Shown here piece after piece: positions 11,714 to 35,612 of a stretch of DNA of 64,000 nucleotides. The first letter of the stretch is position 1; each line of letters opens with the position of its first letter. Source of the stretch: Tubulanus polymorphus (lineage: Eukaryota; Nemertea; Palaeonemertea; Tubulaniformes; Tubulanidae); the NCBI RefSeq assembly GCF_964204645.1, contig NC_134028.1, forward strand, positions 24,836,153-24,900,152. Reading direction: 5' to 3'. Below the pieces are notes generated by a model that searched no databases, was not told the origin of the DNA, and was given only the letters and a program-made list of their open reading frames with translations. The position numbers and the translations under genes are program-made.

Positions 11714-12163
11714 TACCGGCCCGAAGCGAGATATGCAGAATTGTTAATCGGGATTCGAACCTAAGTATGCGGAAGTTGTTACTGTCAATCAAATTAAAGT
11801 TTATTGAATCTAGAAAAGAAAATTATTTAGCATACGATGTAACAAAATCGCAGAGTGAGAGTTGAGGCCCAACAGCTGAACGGTGTCTGGTCGCTCAAAG
11901 GTCGTTGGTTGATATTGGAAAGGTCAGTAATTTGTCCGCATTTTTTCTTTGTAAATATATTTCATTATCCTTAAAGTCATTATTGTCATCGAGGCTGTCA
12001 CGGACCGGACCCTCACAAACGAACAACTAATAAAACAGAAAACAGAAGCTGTGCCCTGTGTGTGGTGGGGCCTGGTGGTGGTGGTGGCTATGCCAATCAA
12101 TTCAACAGAACAGAAGAAAATTTGAGAAATCTATATTCATCGTTGTCATCATCATCGTTTCAG

Positions 12164-15100
12164 ATGACACTCATCAGAAGTTTGCAGTTTGTTGTTCGCA
12201 CGCAGCCCGTTCTAGTTCGATACACTTGCCGCAGCAGCTATCACGGAGGAGGGGGCGCTTCGGTTAATAGCGGCGCCGGTGAGAATGTGGTTATTGATCT
12301 GCGTAGTGATACGGTTACTCAACCGAACGCAGCTATGAGGCTCGCGATGCAAAACGCGACGGTCGGCGATGATGTTTTCGGGGAAGATCCAACTGTCAAC
12401 TGTAAGTTATATAACATCTTTTGAAAATGCATCCAGGTGTCATCTCACCTCCAGGTGTCGTTTTGATGTATCATCTGTAGGTACGTTATAACGACAAGTA
12501 AAATCGATTAAAATCTTTAGATATTAAATGATTGAATGATATTTCAGCTCTGCAGGACAGATGTGCCAAATTATTCGGCAAGGAAGCTGCTTTATTTATT
12601 CCGACGGGAACTATGGGTAACCTCATCGCGCGTACGTATTCAAATTCTTTAAAATGCCTACAATTCAGTTATAAAACCTCCCATAACAAATACCTTTCCA
12701 CAGCAAACATTTCCCCCCTACCCCAAGATGGAAGGCGTTCGTAAAGATAGGTTTACTATATTTCTAGTGATGCATTCAATAGATTTTTCAATGTGATTTT
12801 TCAGTGATGGTTTACTGTGATGGCCGTGGTTTAGAATGTTTACTCGGTGATAAGTCTCATATTTTCCTCTATGAACAAGGCGGCATGGCTCAGGTTAGTT
12901 TTCTACCTATTTACTTTGTAGATTCGATTAAAGCGAAGAGACAATTATTCGGAATTTGTTTCACAGGTGCTGCTATCTTTTAATAGAGATAGAAACTAAT
13001 TACTAATAACATCGATACACCGCGATGCGATGTACAATCAAAGTCAATCACCAATGTTTTACACTGCACTGCGGTGTAGATGCATTGAAAAGGTCAATTT
13101 TTTGGGAAACTTCATCGTTACTGCAGCATTCATCTGACTTTAAACAACTTTGAGCAACTGGCCCCGAATGTTTGAAATTATATTTCATAGATAGCAGGCG
13201 TGCATCCGCGTACGGTGTCCAATTTGAAAGATGGGACTTTCGATTTGACGGAATTGGAATATAAAATCCGGATATCCGATGATGTACATCAGCCGGTTAC
13301 TCGTATGATCTGCGTGGAGAATACGCACAACGTCTGTGGTGGGCGTATAATGCCTATAGACTTCCTTAAACACGTAAGTGGACTTTATTCTGAGATTGGT
13401 TTCTATAATTCAGTGGGGAACCAGTAATACTATTGTGCGTAGCCCACATAAGCGGTAACGTCACAGAGTCGGCATTCCCTTCAGTTTACATTTCTATCCA
13501 AAAATGCCAGGAACTCATCTTTGGATTGAGTAACTGTTGACTTTAGAAAGTGCTGAATTTGGCATCAGTCTGACTGCTACAAAGCCTGAAATATTGTTAA
13601 TGAAGTTGTTGTGTATTTTTTAATTGCTCTATACAGTTATTCGCTCATATTTCACGTAATATTTCAGTTGTATCAAATAGCGAAGAAGAACGAGATAAAT
13701 ATGCACATGGACGGAGCTCGACTGATGAATGCAGCCGTTGCTCTGGATATTCCTGTTTCGGATATAACCCGGTTTACTGATACCGTTACGATGTGCTTTT
13801 CAAAAGTAAGCTATACATTTATTGAAGAGTCCAATAAATATCCAGTGAAATTTGACTCGGATTTTGGTTGCAGCGTAGAAATATACTGTACTGGTTAATT
13901 ATTGTTTTAGGGACTTGGCGCCCCGATTGGATCAATATTGTCGGGATCTGCTGATTTCATTCAAGGGTAAGTCCAGCATGAACACCAACGCACATTTCAT
14001 GATAATTGAATACATAGTGAGCCAAAATCATTTTCTCTTCATGAAGTTTTTCGAGCTTTCATTGTTCCAGGTTTTAGCTTATCAACAAATTTCAACAAAT
14101 TTCTAATTAAATTAGACTCCTAACTACTAACTCGAATTGATTTGGCTGCAGTGATTTCTGTTCGAGTTTTGACGATGAAATTCAATTCACATTCTGTTGC
14201 AATAGTTCGGACATTTGTATTTCAGAGTCATAGAATTAATTTGACAATAATTTGAAAGCATTCGAGTTAAGAGGAGTCTACTGTATCAACTCCTCAACTT
14301 CATGATTGGCTTAAATCATGAAATATTTTGTAAATGTTTTTAGAGCGAACCGATTGAGGAAGTGTTTAGGAGGCGGTATGAGACAGGCGGGAGTTCTTGC
14401 GGCTGCTGCTCACGTCGCACTCGACGAGGCTCAATCTAAATTGAAAACCGATCATCATCACGCTCGCCAATTAGCCGAAGGTTCGTTGTTTTAGATTTTA
14501 AAGTTTCGAAAATCATGACTCGATTTGGCGGTTCTCGGTCAAGTTGAACTATGTATAGTTGAAATAAGTTCAGTTCTGGGTCCAGTTCCACAGTTCTAAG
14601 TTAAGATTTGACCCTGGGTTAAAACATTGAAAATGAACTAACTTTAACTCAGAGTTAACTCTAACTCACAACTGTGGAACTGGGTCCTGGGTAAACTGTG
14701 GAGTTAAATTTCCAGGGTCCCTAAGACTCCTTAAAAATCTCTTTCTAAACAGAAAATGCTTTTTAAGTTCTAAGTTAGAAATTTGGTAAAAGAAACTTTA
14801 AGTATTATTCGCTATAAATGTGGTAGACATTTTGTGGTATAAATGGTATAATCTTGTTGTGTATATTCAGCGTTGAATCACCACGGTAAAGGAATCGTCA
14901 GCGTTGATTTGAACGGAATCGAAACGAACATCGTGATGATCAATATGGAAACTGACGATATTTCAGCGGAAGATTTATGTGAAAGATTCGCTCAGGTTCG
15001 TTCGCATATCGATGATTGTCTTGTTTTGTTTTTGAGTAACTGTTTCGCATTTCAACTGGCATAGCTGTAATACACACACAATTCAGTACAAGTTTACTAT

Positions 15101-18850: not shown

Positions 18851-21800
18851 CTACAGGTCAGTATTTCGTATGAATCGATTTCCTTCGGAATGACGACCGT
18901 AATACACATATTTCGACACGCCGTAAGAGCCTGAAAATAACCAGAAACCGCTAAAATACGTAAGTCCTTAAAAGAAATTAACTAGACTTGAAAACTCATT
19001 CAGAATTTTCTTAGAATGAGAAACAAATCAATGCTAAGGAATTCGGGGGCCACAGTGGGAGCCATTTCAAAGAATGACTTATATCAGTCACAGTAAACAC
19101 ACAATACTGATGATAAAATTCAACAAAAATTCAAATTCCCCGACTTTTCCCCTGACTCTCAAGACAAGAAGAGCCAAATTTCCCTGATTTTTCCTGCAAG
19201 AAATAATTGAAATTCCCTGATATTTGTTGATCTACAAGAACTCTGTAACACTTACCGACTGGACCATTTGGTTGTGCTGTATTTTCAGGTAAAGGAGTGT
19301 ATGGCGATGGTCTTTCCGGTTCGCAATAAGTCATCTACAAAATGAATTTCTAAAATGAAGCACCCTCTATAGACAACCCTTCGAGTTGATGTCTAGACCG
19401 TGAAAAGAAGAGATTGAGTGTTTTATAAATGGATCTAGATTTCTATATATCATTACCATATCGTCATCACGAGCTTTCACAGTTTTCAAAAACTCGCCAA
19501 CTCGCTCCGCTTCAGACCGTTCAAAATCAGTAACTGGCGATGCATCGATGAACTTCAAATTCGGTAAATTGTGTAACAAATAAAGCCTGAAATATACCGT
19601 ACAGTATAGTTTAGTTGATGAACTTGCTTATGTGGTTTATTTGAAAATCTATCAGAATGAAAGTCAATGATCAAATGAACAAAATAACTCGAAAGTCATA
19701 ACTCGAAATATTTGACATGGGTTAACCCAAAGGATAAATCTACTATTCACACTATGTGAAAAGAAGACCTTCTAAAATTGAATGTTTTATACCTGTATTT
19801 CTGGTAATCATCATCATCTTTCTCGATGTTCGACAGCTGATTAGGACAGGCCAGATTTCCCAGCAGACTGATGTACGTCAGCGACGGTAAACTCGTTCTT
19901 ATTTTGTCGATCAGGACGTCTAGATCTGATATTTACGATCGTCAAAGATGAAATGCTGTCATACAGAAAATCCCACAATCAATCCATAAAACATAATTTT
20001 GTAGTTAAATCAAGTATTCCTGGAGATGATCACTAGGATATACATGTAGTCTAAATGTCGATAATAAATCATTAACTAAAGGAACTCATTTTCCTTCTCT
20101 GAATGAGAAGTTTCTATATCATCACTACAACACAGGCTGCATCGTTTTCAGAATGGTTTGTAAAATGTCACCATCTCTTTTTGAATATGCAATGAATCTA
20201 GATATTTGTTAAAAAAGATCAAGAATGGTCGTTTTGTAAAAGGATATTTGATTTTTATTCAGCATGAGCGTGTGTAGATTTTCTAATGGTGGAATTTCTG
20301 TGTTGTTGTTTATCTTATTATTGTCAAGTACAAGTTCTTCTAAATGTGTGAATGGCCTTACATCGTCCAGTGAGCTAGAAATATAGATCATTTTCAAAGT
20401 GACAAATCATGATAATGATAACGGAATCATTTGGTCTAGCACGAACATTCTCAAGACGAGCATTCCATAAGATAGGGCAAAGGTAGCTATTGAAAGCTTT
20501 TTTCCCCATCTTTCGGTGTCAGTTGCTTTGAAGAATAAGCTTATTTAGCTATCATGAACTCTAACAATTTTACCTGAACTGATTAAAACTCAAATCTAGA
20601 CATCTAACGAGCTCGCTGTATTTAGAGATGATATCTTCAGACAGTTGATCGACATCTGCCCCGATACAAGAAAGCTACAAAAATAAATAAACATAGTGAG
20701 AATGCAATTATAAAGCAGTCTTTCCTTTGCAAGATTTTCTCAGAGAACTAGCAGGGATGAAATCAATTGGACTAAAATTAAAGAAATCCCATGATATAAT
20801 GATTCAACAACTAAAATCTGTTATCCTGATATTTCGTGAAGATTATTCCTTCTCATGTTTAGAGATGAATAAATCTCTGAAGATGGAGAGGAGAAAATGG
20901 CAAGTGATACTTTGCCACAATAGTACGGCATTATTCCCGTTAACATTAAAAAATGAGAGCGGATAGGGCAGTATTCAAAGCATATTGATTTAACTCTAAA
21001 CCACTAAGGATTGCCCAATTCTCTAATGTTTTAACTACATAGAGCACTCAACCTAACCCTATCCCTAGCAGTAAAACGAACCCTTTTTAGACTAATCCTC
21101 ATAACCATCTGGATCCTCTTAACCCTAATCCTAAACCTAATAATTCTATTGCTATTTACATTTGTATATCTTATCATATATAGATGTCAGCAAAATGGCT
21201 TTCACTAAAATAATGATGCGCTGGCAAAATATCCACTTCCAAAGAAAAACTAAGTGGTCAGTCGGAAATGTCAGGATTTTGTTAATTGTGTGGAATAAGC
21301 TACAGGAGTCATTTTCACAGTCAAGGCTTCCACTCATACAGGTCTAAGACAATTTTCACATCTTTAAATATGTGTTTGACATTTCTCCTGCTGTTGTCAC
21401 TCATATGCACACAGTCAGTCAGCAGGTCCCTGCTGACCTCGTAGGGTTTTCAGATCACGTGACCAAAACCGGCCATAGTGCCGTTTTTTCCCACTTCAAA
21501 AGTTATGAACTTGATAAATCTTATAATTGTCATCCGATTTACTTGAACTAAATTTATGAGGAAAGATAATAAGCATCTTGTACTGTGTTGAAAATTCCAT
21601 GTTAATGCGCGGCGTAGTTCGTGAGTTACAAGCTGTTGGACTCCAGCCAACTTTAGATTGTTGATTGACAGGTGCGCGTGTACTCTTCACCGCGGATTTC
21701 GAAAAATGCAGTTTTGAGATGCCCATCTTCTAGGCGATACTGCAGAAAAGGGGCGGGACTGGGGATCACGAAACCTTCACAGGTGTTTTCAAAACTTCTT

Positions 21801-23651
21801 GATTGACATCCAGGTATGCCGTACTTGTTTGTACCGGCAATTTGACCGATTTTGCGACACTTAAAAGATTTTAACGCAATATATTTCATCAAATTTTGAA
21901 ATTTAGAAATTAGTTCTCCCCCAGGTGGAAAAATATAGTAGTTTTAGTGTATATTGCAAAAGGTTTTAGTTAGATTCGTTAAGCCATCGCTCTCGACTTT
22001 TGGGTTAAATTTGGGAAGTATCGAAAAAATTGCTACATCCGGGCATTTTCATTCACTTCCGGGTTCGCGTTAGCGTTTGTTTACATGTGTAAATCAGCTG
22101 TTTACGCTAGTTTTAAGTTGTTTTAAGTCATTTTCTCACAGAATCAATGAAATTTATGATAATTACTTTATATTGAGCAACTTTGGGGAAGATGTCGCCG
22201 ATAAAGCTCAAGAAATCCCGTGTGTCATTCTGAAGGCCTTAGGCCTACCTCATCAATCACACTGAAAAAGCAGCTAGATGAACCCCCAGCCTCTCCCCAA
22301 TAAAAATGTCCATATGAAACCTAAATTGAAATGAAAATACAATATATATTTATCAAAAAATCATTTATTTATGTTTTGCAAGCTACAATTGAAACGGCCA
22401 AAGCTGACTCCTACTCGTAGTCAATTATCATCTTCCTTGGACTTGGGCCGCCACAAAATTTATAATTGCTGTATTTTATTGCTCATATGAAATTCTCAAT
22501 CCACAATTCCATTAACTTATCTATATTGAAGCTTATTTAGATAAGATGGTTGCAGTTTAAATAACTCCATCTCAGTGAGAGTTAAAGCTTTTAGGACTTG
22601 GCCTACATTTTGCATAATGATTCTTTTAAGAGGGGTTGGCTTATTTAACATCATAGTTCTTAGAGTGACCTGCAAAAGATAAAAGTTTCAATTGATAGAT
22701 CCTTCTTCAAGTACTTTACATACCATAAAGGTTCTTTCTGGATCTTTTTTAGCAACGAGGATCCAATAGGCCTAACGTGACTTGGCCTAAATTTGAAATT
22801 CAAGAATTCTTACTGGATCACTAATATTTTCTTACCAATCAACTGAACGCATGAATCCTGATTAAATAGAGGAAGCTGGGGTAAATACGATCAGTCTGAT
22901 ACCAATCATGATGCTTTTTTGGGTTTGAAATACTTTCCGAGCGCCGACAACCATTTGAATCCCAAATATCAATTGTTGCTATTGTGGTTACCATGGCAAC
23001 CAACTTTTATGTGTTGCGATGTCTGTGGTAAATTATAGTCGGATATATTTATCCCTGTGAAGTCCTAACACAAATAAGTAAACATTTATCCTTTGTTTTT
23101 AGCTGATGAATACCTGGAACTGGCAATGAGCCAATTAATTAAGCTAATTACCCTTAATTGGCTTAATTAATAATTAGTTTAAGATTTATAATCAATAAGA
23201 AAAGTATTATTCTGTATTTTCCCAAAGTTTGATTGAAATCGGATGACAAATCCCAAAGATATACAAGTTTCTTTTCTACTTTCAATTATTTCTTAACTAA
23301 GAAATTGATCATTTGGTCACCATTTGACCTTGTGACCTTTAGTTCATTTCCTAATGAAGACTCTATGGCTGAGAAGTGTGGTTTTCAGCCGACAAATTCC
23401 TTCATAACTTTTGAACGGCTTCACCGATTTTAGTTCTGTAAATTGCTATGATCTTATATTAAACCCTTCTTTCATCTAGGCCTTTTCAATTGTTTGTATA
23501 GTGTTTGGAAAATTTTCACTTGAAAACCCTCTAGGCCTACCCGGTTCTCTTCAGCTGCAAACACAACGTTCACATCGACATCGTCATCGTTATCAACTTC
23601 ATTTGTCGTACTGTCATCATGTGGACTTCTTTCAACTGGAGCAATTTCCAT
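18851..23651 (-). CDS. LRMDA: LRMDA-like leucine-rich repeat protein
   Basis: Small leucine-rich repeat protein resembling vertebrate LRMDA (C10orf11), which acts in melanocyte differentiation; the role in invertebrates is unknown. Exons by complement: 23541-23651, 20574-20674, 20248-20374, 19793-19932, 19457-19586, 19256-19334, 18851-18930 (768 nt, 255 residues, phases all consistent). LRR units: VRCLDLSFNQFSSL, LEELVLDNNKI, LHTLMLNKNQISDL, LTYISLLGN, then an LRR cap (ACPNQL...DDYQKYRLYLLHNLPNLKF) and the conserved tail YYGRHSEGNRFIRN. The acidic N-terminal exon (Asp/Glu-rich) is the least certain: its start ATG at 23651 is the first in frame after an acceptor-like site at 23703. Exon 3 to exon 4 has no GT or AG and fits a U12 AT-AA intron. 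The first intron is about 2.9 kb. Confidence 0.78.
19933..20247 (-). other. Probable U12-type intron with AT-AA ends
   Basis: On the minus strand the exon ends ...AAT CAA and the intron starts ATATCCTTTT, the consensus minor-spliceosome 5' site. The next exon must start ATA TCA GAT CTA to keep the conserved NQ-ISDLDVL reading, so the intron ends ...GATCGTAA. A branch-site-like ATCTTTGAC lies with its adenosine about 9 nt before that end. AAATATC is present at both boundaries, so the exact cut is ambiguous, but no placement gives GT-AG or AT-AC. Confidence 0.72.
21430..23440. other. Large intron of the LRMDA-like gene, repeat-derived
   Basis: No exon seen. It holds degenerate CCTAA/CCCTAA text near 21050-21145, a long AT-rich unit around 21450-21900, and a near-palindrome near 23132-23180 (CCAATTAATTAAG...CTTAATTGGCTTAATTAAT). 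Their class is unknown. Confidence 0.4.
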
Positions 23652-23932
23652 TTCTAATGACCTTTTCAAAGACTTGATAACTCCGCTACTCGATGAAATA
23701 AGCTGAAAATATATCTAAATTCTTAATGTTTAATTTACAGTCCATCCACCATATTGGAATGTCACATGACTTCTGTTTGACAGCTGAAGCAGAACAACCT
23801 TGAGAATCGAGTATTAACATTCACCGAATCAATTCTCGGAGCCACCCGCTATTGTGAACCAGGAAGTAATAAACAAGAAGCGAAGCGGCTCGTGCGAAAA
23901 TTGTTCTCGTCTTTTTCTGTTAATTGGTTAAA
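23652..23932. promoter_or_regulatory. Shared divergent promoter, LRMDA-like / BIRC5
   Basis: The first coding exon of the minus-strand LRMDA-like gene and the ATG of plus-strand BIRC5 are 281 bp apart and point away from each other, so this short interval probably holds both 5' ends. If the acceptor-like site at 23703 is used, the LRMDA-like promoter lies further right. Confidence 0.5.
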
Positions 23933-26155
23933 ATGGGCATGAGAGCTGACGCTAATGGTATTAAACTGGGACTGCACAGTTTAGAAAGTCGACTTGAAAC
24001 GTTTAATGATTGGCCTTTTGCCAGTGACTGTCTGTGCACTCCAGAAAAAGTGAGTAGTTCAACTTGCTTGACTCGTTCAACAAGTCGTTGTTGAGACTGA
24101 GAACACTTTTCAGAATCATCCAGGTGGCTTAGCTTGAAACATTGGCAGTTGAAACCACAGGCACTTGAATATGGGCTTTGATAATGGATAAATATTTGAT
24201 AATTTACCAGCGATACGTTAATCCTACTTTAATAGATCCGCCATGTTTTATAATAAATTTACCCATGATGCAACGCGCGCCGGTCGTTTAGCTATACTAT
24301 ACAGAAATGCTGGAAACGATCCTATCTCCGTAATGCTTAAATCTACCCGCAATTATCGGGACCGCCGAACACTGCCGATGATTGCCGAAGTACATCCTTA
24401 GTGTCAATTTTAATCCTGAAATATAGGAGCGCCCATAATTTCAATTGTAGATGATTTTTTTGGAAACATTGACAGTGTTTTAGCTCCATTAAAGATTTTA
24501 AATGGCAACAAAATTGATTTTTGAAAATTCGCGATGCCTCTTCGGGATTGCTGTGACATCATCTGTCCCGATAACTGCGGGTAGATTTAAGCATTACGGA
24601 GATAGGATCATTTCCAGCCTTTCTGTATAATATAGCTAAACGACCGGCGCGCGTTGCATCATGGGTAAATTTATTATAAAACATGGCGGATCTATTAAAG
24701 TAGGATTAACGTATCGCTGGTAAATTATCAAATATTTATCCATTATCAAAGCCCATATTCAAGTGCCTGTGGTTGAAACATTGTTTTTTAATCCATTCTA
24801 AGCTGTATAGAAGGATGGCCTAAAAGTCTGCATTGAAAGGGAATAAGAAAAAGAGACTCCATGTTTTGAAAGTTTAACAATATATTTTTCCATGTCTACC
24901 AACCAAACTTAAGTTATTTTGTCCTTAGTTATTGATACTCGTTTATATTATTTTCTTCAGAAAAAGTGAGTTGTTGAATTGTTGGTGGCTCAGCCCGCTC
25001 TCGGTCTAGGGCCTATATAACCTCCTGTGGACTGTGGTTTCTGTTTCTATTTCTAGATGGCTGAAGCAGGTTTTGTACACTGTCCGTCGAATGAAGAGCC
25101 AGACCTCGCCAAATGTTACATCTGTTTAAAAGAACTCGATGGTTGGGAACCTACTGATGACCCTTGGTAAAAATTCTACCTTTCGATTTGAATTAAAGCT
25201 TATTTACCCTTCTCCCTGTGACCGACATTTGATGTCAGAGGGATAGTTAGTTACCTAGGGGCCTAATCGTTGGTGGTAAGCTTTTTATAATCGGATGATA
25301 TTATACCAACTTGTGGTTTGTGAAAATATCCGATCGTGAAACTAAACCACAGACAGGTTACTGACTATCAGAGGGACTGAAGTTTAAGCTTAGGTCTTCC
25401 TAAGAATTTTGTGAATGATTATGAATATTTTTTTCTATTTCAGGAAAGAGCATTTGTCACATTCGGCTGGTTGTTTGTTTGTCCAGTTCGGAAAGAAGAA
25501 GCATACGTTGGCGGAAGTGATTAAATTAGAGTCGGCTCGAAGACAGAATATGATCGTAGGTTGACGATTCAGAAATTACAAACAATCAAAACTTATGACT
25601 CTGTATTGTACCTCGAATGCTTTCAACGAGGCGCATTTATTATTCAGGATCCCTCTTGAAAACTGCCGCTTGAAACTTTTAATTGCAACAAAATGCTCGA
25701 AACTCCTTCAATCTTGAGAAATAGGCTATTAGAAATTTAAGAGTACTTCTATATCGGTACAGTTGATACCAGGGGCCGGTTGCACAGTCACAGCTTAGAC
25801 TTAAGACCAGTCTAAGACCAACTTAGTTCTATAGCCAATCTAAAAACAATCTTAACGGGACCAGTCTTAAGATTTAAGACCACTTTTGGACTTATGTCAC
25901 GACTGTGCAACTGGCCCCAGGATCTTTTGTCACCCTATTAGATGGTTATCGAATTAGAAACTGAGTTTAGAAAAGATGAAAATTTGCCTCCAAAACCACC
26001 GGTTCGAACAGTTTACCAACATGGACACTACCGATTTATAAACAATGTAACTATGAATCATTCTTGCGTTTCAGATGAAAGTTATGAAGGAGAAAGTAAA
26101 AGAACTTGAGGAATACGCGAAGGAGACCAGAGAACAAATGATATCGTTATTGTAG
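23933..26155 (+). CDS. BIRC5: Survivin, single-BIR inhibitor of apoptosis
   Basis: Chromosomal passenger complex subunit that docks on histone H3T3ph at centromeres with borealin, INCENP and Aurora B, and has anti-apoptotic activity. Exons 23933-24049, 25057-25166, 25444-25555, 26075-26155 (420 nt, 139 residues; human is 142). One BIR domain spans about residues 12-87; Zn ligands Cys59, Cys62, His79 and Cys86 sit in [14 protein letters not shown] and [10 protein letters not shown], matching human C57/C60/H77/C84. The C-terminal third ([20 protein letters not shown]) is the long helix that bundles with borealin and INCENP. There is no RING. A second in-frame Met (residue 3) follows the chosen start. 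AATAAA lies at about 26285. Confidence 0.96.
24134..24783. mobile_element. Foldback element with ~210-bp inverted arms, BIRC5 intron 1
   Basis: Left arm 24153-24362 and right arm 24565-24774 are near-perfect reverse complements (landmarks: AGCGATACGTTAATCCTACT, GCAACGCGCGCCGGTCGTTT, TAAATCTACCCGCARTTATC) around a 202-bp loop. TTGAAACATTG flanks both sides (24134-24144 and 24773-24783), an 11-bp candidate target duplication. Long arms with 9-11-bp duplications suggest a Mutator-like non-autonomous element. No coding capacity. Confidence 0.85.
25770..25920. mobile_element. Palindromic MITE, BIRC5 intron 3
   Basis: Ends CAGGGGCCGGTTGCACAGTC and GACTGTGCAACTGGCCCCAG, with internal AAGACCAGTCTTA palindromes. 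A second near-full copy lies at 43172-43320 and weaker copies elsewhere. Confidence 0.85.
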
Positions 26156-34139: not shown

Positions 34140-35510
34140 TCATTTTGCATTTTGTTGGTCGTCGTTTTGCAGAAGCTGCTGTAAATAATTCCTATGAATT
34201 TCCCTCTCGCGCTTCACGCCGTCCAACTCAACGAGGGCCGCGTCCCTTTTCCGCCGACAATCCGACTTCGCGCGTTCGACCGCATCCAAGAAATTCAAAC
34301 CGTACTGCCGCATGGGCGATCCGTCAGCTTCACTCGTCGTGGCAGACGATGCGCCCAAACCCGTCTGCTCCATCTGCTCGACAGCAGACGACACGATCTC
34401 CGCGTTTTCTTTAAACGCCGTCAAAAATGTCTTTAAAGTTTCGTCGGACGGCGTCGTTTTCATAGCCGCGTATTTCTCGAGTAACTCGCGGATCGGAAGG
34501 CAGACGAACTCGCGAGCGCTGCGTCGGAATTCCTCGTAACTCGTCTCCACCGCCGCGAACAACGAATCGACGTATTCGATTTCGAGTTCGTAGATTTCTC
34601 GGTGAAATTCGAGTTCGCGTTCGATCGCGCGAGTTTCTAATCCCGATGCGTTCACGCTATAATTCATCGATTTCACCGCTGCCGTGACAACGTCCTTTAA
34701 TTGTTGCCGATATTTCGGCGTCAATTTTGGGAATTTTGACATAACATTAGCCACGGTCAAGTCCAAATATTTACTTTTCTGAAGCGCAGGCCACGGCGCC
34801 GCGGGCACGAGCACCGACAAGTTTAACAAGTCTTGATTTATATCTTTAAGCGCATCACGCGTTTCGTTGATTCGTAAATAGGTATGCTCATAAACCGGAG
34901 CGCCGAGTTCGAGTCCGGATGAACATACCGTGCGGAATGAATACTCCAAACTCGTTAACCGTTTAAACAACGAGAATAATTTCGTTTCAAGTTTCGAAAC
35001 GTGTTTCAAATTGATATGATCGAGATTCCCGCTGCAAACGTCCAATAAGCTGACGTCGCCATTTTCTTTCAGATCCGGTTTAACGAATTCCCCGACAATC
35101 AGCGCCGGTTTAGCGAGCGTCTCCGCGCTCGTATTCGCGACCGTTTTCGATATTTTTAAACGCGTCGATTCGGCGACTTCGACCATTTTCATGATGTGAC
35201 CGCGCGGGACCGGAACGTCCGGACCGTGGATATCTTTAGCTATGTAAACACGCCACGAGTCGGCTAGTTTACTCAACGAGTTTTCGATTTCGAGCAGCGT
35301 ATTCGAACGGGACGCCAGTGATTCCGACAGAATCAGATTTTGTCTTTCCATTTGTATAAGCTGCGATTTGAGCAACAGAACGCGCCATTCTTCGTAGTTT
35401 TCGTTTTTTCTCTCGTTTAGTAATTGCTCGTGAAGCGATTTCGTTTCTTCAAGTTCAGAATTCAATGATTCGTTTTCTTTGCGCAACTTTTCAATGATTT
35501 TATCAGCCAT
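34140..35510 (-). CDS. Unrecognised 456-residue coiled-coil protein
   Basis: I do not recognise the family. One uninterrupted coding exon from ATG at 35510 to TAA at 34140. Residues 1-35 (ADKIIEKLRKENESLNSELE) and about 45-80 predict coiled coil. The middle (about 90-330) is helical without low complexity, with a Pro-containing segment VPAAPWPALQKSKYLDL. About 280-400 is again heptad-rich (ERELEFHREIYELEIEYVDS), and the last 40 residues form a charged helix ending QQLLQNDDQQNAK. There is no signal peptide or membrane segment. An acceptor-like TGCTTGCAG lies 10 nt before the ATG, so a 5' noncoding exon is likely. AATAAA occurs 65 nt past the stop, before CFAP184 begins, arguing for its own transcript. 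Codon use is GC-richer than its introns, consistent with a real gene. Confidence 0.85.
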   Translation of the reverse strand: MADKIIEKLRKENESLNSELEETKSLHEQLLNERKNENYEEWRVLLLKSQLIQMERQNLILSESLASRSNTLLEIENSLSKLADSWRVYIAKDIHGPDVPVPRGHIMKMVEVAESTRLKISKTVANTSAETLAKPALIVGEFVKPDLKENGDVSLLDVCSGNLDHINLKHVSKLETKLFSLFKRLTSLEYSFRTVCSSGLELGAPVYEHTYLRINETRDALKDINQDLLNLSVLVPAAPWPALQKSKYLDLTVANVMSKFPKLTPKYRQQLKDVVTAAVKSMNYSVNASGLETRAIERELEFHREIYELEIEYVDSLFAAVETSYEEFRRSAREFVCLPIRELLEKYAAMKTTPSDETLKTFLTAFKENAEIVSSAVEQMEQTGLGASSATTSEADGSPMRQYGLNFLDAVERAKSDCRRKRDAALVELDGVKREREIHRNYLQQLLQNDDQQNAK

Positions 35511-35612
35511 GTCAATCACCTGCAAGCACATAAAGTTAATGCAGTTAACTCTGTCTATTCAGTTAGCTTGTGGGACTGACTGTTAAGTTAATATTTCACA
35601 AAATTAATCAGG

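Follow-up and report, generated by a model that had tools for sequence, protein, structure and literature searches.

A probable AT-AA U12-type intron in the LRMDA orthologue of Tubulanus polymorphus

Two neighbouring exons of an LRMDA-like gene of Tubulanus polymorphus, here called exons A and B, read together as one LRR protein, and the question was which splice sites could join them. The DNA analysed (the window) was a stretch of 64,000 nucleotides, G000:C4:24836153-24900152, from an assembly of 268 Mb in 77 contigs, and the gene lies on its minus strand. The initial annotation had proposed a minor-spliceosome intron with AT-AA ends between the two exons, and this appears to be the best-supported reading, judged by the 5' site, the branch, the snRNA pairing, the encoded machinery and the LRR that it keeps. 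The segment 20247..19933 is very probably an A-type (AT-AN) U12 intron with AT-AA ends in an LRMDA orthologue.

Gene structure and identity

Six coding exons were read from 20674 downward, giving 657 nt including the stop, with a single stop at the end. The introns among them were GT-AG in all cases but 20247..19933.

20574 to 20674, minus strand: coding exon before exon A, with GT-AG flanks
20248 to 20374, minus strand: exon A, 127 nt, start phase 2 and end phase 0, SSLDDVRPFTHLEELVLDNNKINNNTEIPPLENLHTLMLNKNQ, placed by frame, AG acceptor and LRR matches
19793 to 19932, minus strand: exon B, 140 nt, ISDLDVLIDKIRTSLPSLTYISLLGNLACPNQLSNIEKDDDDYQKY(R), placed by the reading frame
19457 to 19586, minus strand: coding exon after exon B, with GT-AG flanks
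19256 to 19334, minus strand: penultimate LRMDA coding exon, with GT-AG flanks
18851 to 18930, minus strand: terminal LRMDA coding exon with the stop, carrying the tail YVYYGRHSEGNRFIRNTDL
23541 to 23651, minus strand: candidate first coding exon, 111 nt, unproven

A coding sequence of 768 nt had been suggested earlier. Its 657 nt from 20674 on were recovered, and the full length was compatible with the data, as it would be reached with the unproven first exon (23651-23541), the sole 111-nt open ATG...GT candidate found upstream when 20680-26000 (about 5.3 kb) was searched.

The joined protein matched the Pfam families LRR_4 (46.3 bits) and LRR_9 (36.1 bits), both above the cut-off. LRMDA is a protein of cellular trafficking in animals. 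Human LRMDA (C10orf11) is the OCA7 gene and encodes an LRR protein which binds RAB32 and Commander (PMC12491506), and its tail carries Y208, G217 and R222 and ends in IRDDQL, with L226 as the last residue (PMC12491506). The tail YVYYGRHSEGNRFIRNTDL was in register with the spacing of Y208, G217, I221, R222 and the terminal L226, so the published LRMDA residues favoured the LRMDA assignment, and the gene resembled human LRMDA in having both the LRR domain and a C-terminal tail with these five residues at the published spacing. Together, domain and tail spacing support an LRMDA orthologue. No LRMDA chain was present among the PDB matches listed for the joined protein. No second LRMDA copy was found in the genome, thus the gene is single-copy.

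The final six residues differed from the human ones, being IRNTDL in Tubulanus polymorphus in place of IRDDQL. In the Commander pattern [IL]-x-[DE]-x-x-[IL], position 3 was occupied by N in IRNTDL (window 18851-18870), which may mean that the binding differs, or that the motif is looser than published.

The gene might also be a decaying copy without functional splicing at 20247..19933, and a non-canonical intron end taken alone could indeed be a mutation. This is scarcely credible for a single-copy gene with 657 nt of open coding sequence, whose remaining introns have normal GT-AG ends and whose C-terminal tail is intact and conserved.

Reading frame across the junction

On the minus strand, exon A ended in ...AATAAAAATCAA (...AATCAA) and was followed by ATATCCTTTTACAA from 20247 down, while the intron ended in ...CATCTTTGACGATCGTAA and was followed by exon B, ATATCAGATCTAGAC, from 19932 down. 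The protein resumed at ATATCAGAT (19932), right after TCTTTGAC-GATCGTAA. The letters quoted in the initial annotation, which had an exon end in CAA followed by the U12 5' consensus, and on the far side the frame ATA TCA GAT with a branch sequence close upstream, were all found in the minus strand. When 20247..19933 was removed, the intron was 315 nt long, in phase 0, with AT-AA ends, and an unbroken LRR protein was obtained, LNKNQ/ISDLD (slashes mark the junction). Human LRMDA presumably has a matching gap-free junction, LNKNRITDLE, which we take as a lead only.

Exon A (...LHTLMLNKNQ) read on into ISFYKTTILDLF and a stop, the TAA lying about 39 nt beyond the junction, and exon B (ISDLDVLIDKI) had an in-frame TAA immediately 5' of its ATA, so the junction was boxed into a short stretch by a stop on either side. 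All frame-keeping junctions between exons A and B were enumerated exhaustively. For GT-AG, 20 pairs were tested, and the 6 which were in frame all lost 60-82 residues; a U2-type (major) GT-AG intron was therefore rejected, as every in-frame pair would cost at least 60 residues. Among the GC-AG and AT-AG junctions of the same enumeration, none preserved the protein. The full protein arose only from a few slides within the shared ATATC or the flanking AA; none of these was GT-AG, GC-AG or AT-AC, and the start of a U12 5' site was found only at 20247..19933. The earlier statement that neither GT-AG nor AT-AC ends could be placed thus stood for GT-AG and went too far for AT-AC, because an AT-AC junction, 20247..19918, was in frame with the loss of five residues.

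A micro-exon inside 19933-20247, with two introns between exons A and B, would be another way to connect them, and it is highly unlikely. The direct join already gave an LRR in consensus register with zero residues missing or extra, and no GT donor existed between the last LRR codon of exon A and its stop, so that a U12 donor would be required anyway.

Splice signals

20238 to 20247, minus strand: U12-type 5' splice site ATATCCTTTT, intron +1 to +10, exact letters
19941 to 19948, minus strand: branch-point sequence TCTTTGAC; the putative branch A is 19942, and the final base of the intron lies 9 nt away
19933 to 19934, minus strand: 3' splice site AA (GATCGTAA/ATATCAG), from the letters and the frame enumeration
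19933 to 20247, minus strand: predicted U12-type intron, 315 nt, 31% GC, AT-AA, phase 0, the sole U12-donor junction keeping the full LRR
19918 to 19919, minus strand: rival in-frame AC acceptor, TCAGATCTAGAC/GTCCTG (CTAGAC/GTC), 15 nt beyond the AA, which deletes ISDLD

The A-type 5' splice site consensus is ATATCCTT (PMC2831892), and the 5' site ATATCCTTTT matched it perfectly with TT in addition, thereby also agreeing with RTATCCTT. The branch sequence TCTTTGAC matched TCCTTRAC at 7/8 positions, and the single mismatch was at a core position. From branch A 19942 it was 9 nt to the final base of the intron and 10 nt to the exon, slightly short of the optimal branch-to-3' distance of 11-13 nt in minor introns (PMC3584512; PMC6717393).

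Under a Markov model of the window, the probability of RTATCCTTT at a given site was about 1.5e-5, that of finding, among 20 starts, a branch that agrees at 7/8 positions or more about 0.012, and that of donor and branch jointly at a fixed junction about 2e-7. The donor motif RTATCCTTT alone was not rare (4 seen against 2.0 expected in 64 kb), and TCYTTRAC was no commoner in the window than by chance; the evidence is the position of the motif, not the motif by itself. The other RTATCCTTT sites (11686 and 54010 on the minus strand, 49592 on the plus strand) were rejected, being without a convincing exon end or a branch with acceptor.

Within the intron, a stretch of about 90 nt (19992-20084, minus strand) had six matches elsewhere in the genome, with identities of 75-86%, so a dispersed repeat makes up part of the minor intron. 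A scan of the window with Rfam matched no RNA family.

The choice of acceptor

A U12-type AT-AC intron ending at 19918 would skip the AA and give a protein without ISDLD. It is in frame, has canonical ends and shares its donor with the AT-AA intron, but it removes the conserved LRR part N-x-I-x-D-L, and every LRR match examined scored lower with this variant: the AT-AA protein gave 73.5 bits for the best PDB LRR match, 46.3 for LRR_4 and 36.1 for LRR_9, and the AT-AC variant gave 53.2, 39.0 and 32.1. The AC acceptor was also 24 nt from branch A, whereas 11-13 nt is optimal (PMC3584512) and the STX6 control described below has 12 nt. Such an intron is unlikely, and the AT-AA intron appears much the better reading on protein matches and branch distance. 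It is quite unlikely that both acceptors, AA (19933) and AC (19918), are used, which would give LRMDA isoforms with and without ISDLD and let 3' site choice tune the RAB32-binding LRR.

An assembly or allelic error might instead have put the AA in place of a true AC or AG, in which case the minor intron would be of the ordinary AT-AC or AT-AG type and end at the same place. One base change would be enough for this; on the other side, the assembly has high contiguity, with 77 contigs, the other LRMDA exons were all read without frame errors, and AT-AA is a known natural ending. Such an error is very unlikely.

Minor-spliceosome machinery

All four minor snRNAs were identified in the genome above the Rfam cut-offs, namely U12 (111.8 bits), U11 (98.1 bits), U4atac (73.0 bits) and U6atac, the last in strong copies of 96.5 and 93.5 bits plus a weak third. 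The two U6atac genes were near-identical and located on separate contigs (G000:C8:14138292 and G000:C6:5269837), and the third match (C8:15260197, 40.5 bits) may be a pseudogene. The N-terminal region of CENATAC was identified on C6 (PF14968, 38.8 bits, above the cut-off), covering model positions 1-43 only.

Judged by letter complementarity only, the U11 of this genome could pair with CCTTTTA through 7 Watson-Crick pairs and a wobble, U6atac could form 7 pairs with TCCTTTT, and 5 Watson-Crick and 2 wobble pairs could form between GTAAGGA(A) of U12 and TCTTTG[A]C, leaving the A bulged.

For the AT-AA intron, splicing would thus be expected to begin with pairing of U11, and then of U6atac, to ATATCCTTTT, while U12 would pair with TCTTTGAC and bulge the A at 19942. 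Of the AN dinucleotides, the minor spliceosome would then take the first at an acceptable distance, which is the AA, 9-10 nt away; it would be taken because no AC is in range. CENATAC would be expected to assist, as with human AT-AN introns.

Comparison with known minor introns

The AT-AC minor intron of STX6 is common to fly and human (PMC2831892), and this ancient intron was found to be retained in the genome of Tubulanus polymorphus (G000:C7:16353275-16356460) as GAAACAATTG/ATATCCTTTTCC...TGCCTTAACATGAGTTCTAC/GTATTGTGGAG. Its donor ATATCCTTTTCC was accompanied by the branch GCCTTAAC and then ATGAGTTCTAC, with the AC end 12 nt past branch A. This canonical AT-AC intron (STX6 intron 2) resembled the LRMDA intron in its 5' site and branch signals, and differed in that it ended in AC with branch A 12 nt upstream, whereas the LRMDA intron ended in AA with 9 nt.

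For PHB2, a Band_7 search yielded no usable intron as a control. Fly and human reportedly have a U12-type intron in PROX1/prospero. In the homologue of Tubulanus polymorphus (G000:C1:1959540-1977695) the prospero-domain introns were GT-AG and without an RTATCC donor, so no A-type control could be obtained from PROX1; a conversion or loss of its U12-type intron in this species is possible.

The initial annotation had called AT-AA a known, uncommon U12 subtype, and it is already catalogued (PMC10639083): of the minor introns conserved in animals, about 3.8% are non-canonical, with AT-AA the most frequent, as it also is among the non-canonical minor-intron termini of plants (PMC10639083). The A-type class is made up of the AT-AN introns and is CENATAC-dependent (PMC8280824). 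The LRMDA intron resembled the known AT-AA minor introns (PMC10639083) in its ATATCC 5' site, U12-type branch and AT-AA ends, and the A-type class spliced with the help of CENATAC (PMC8280824) in that CENATAC is encoded in the genome; the difference lay in the host gene and the species only. It adds one case to a catalogued class, and no new host gene is claimed. In the article texts searched, LRMDA/C10orf11 was not named as a minor-intron gene.

The locus offers a clean case, free of annotation, of a single-copy animal gene with an AT-AA minor intron. Gene prediction pipelines which require GT-AG, GC-AG or AT-AC ends would probably mis-predict the join of exons A and B, or might instead shift the junction to the in-frame AC and lose five LRR residues.

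Two other open frames were noticed in the window, both by eye only. One (34140-35558, minus strand, 472 aa) resembled the C-terminal coiled-coil of dynactin p150, and the other (11975-12424, plus strand) resembled threonine aldolase.
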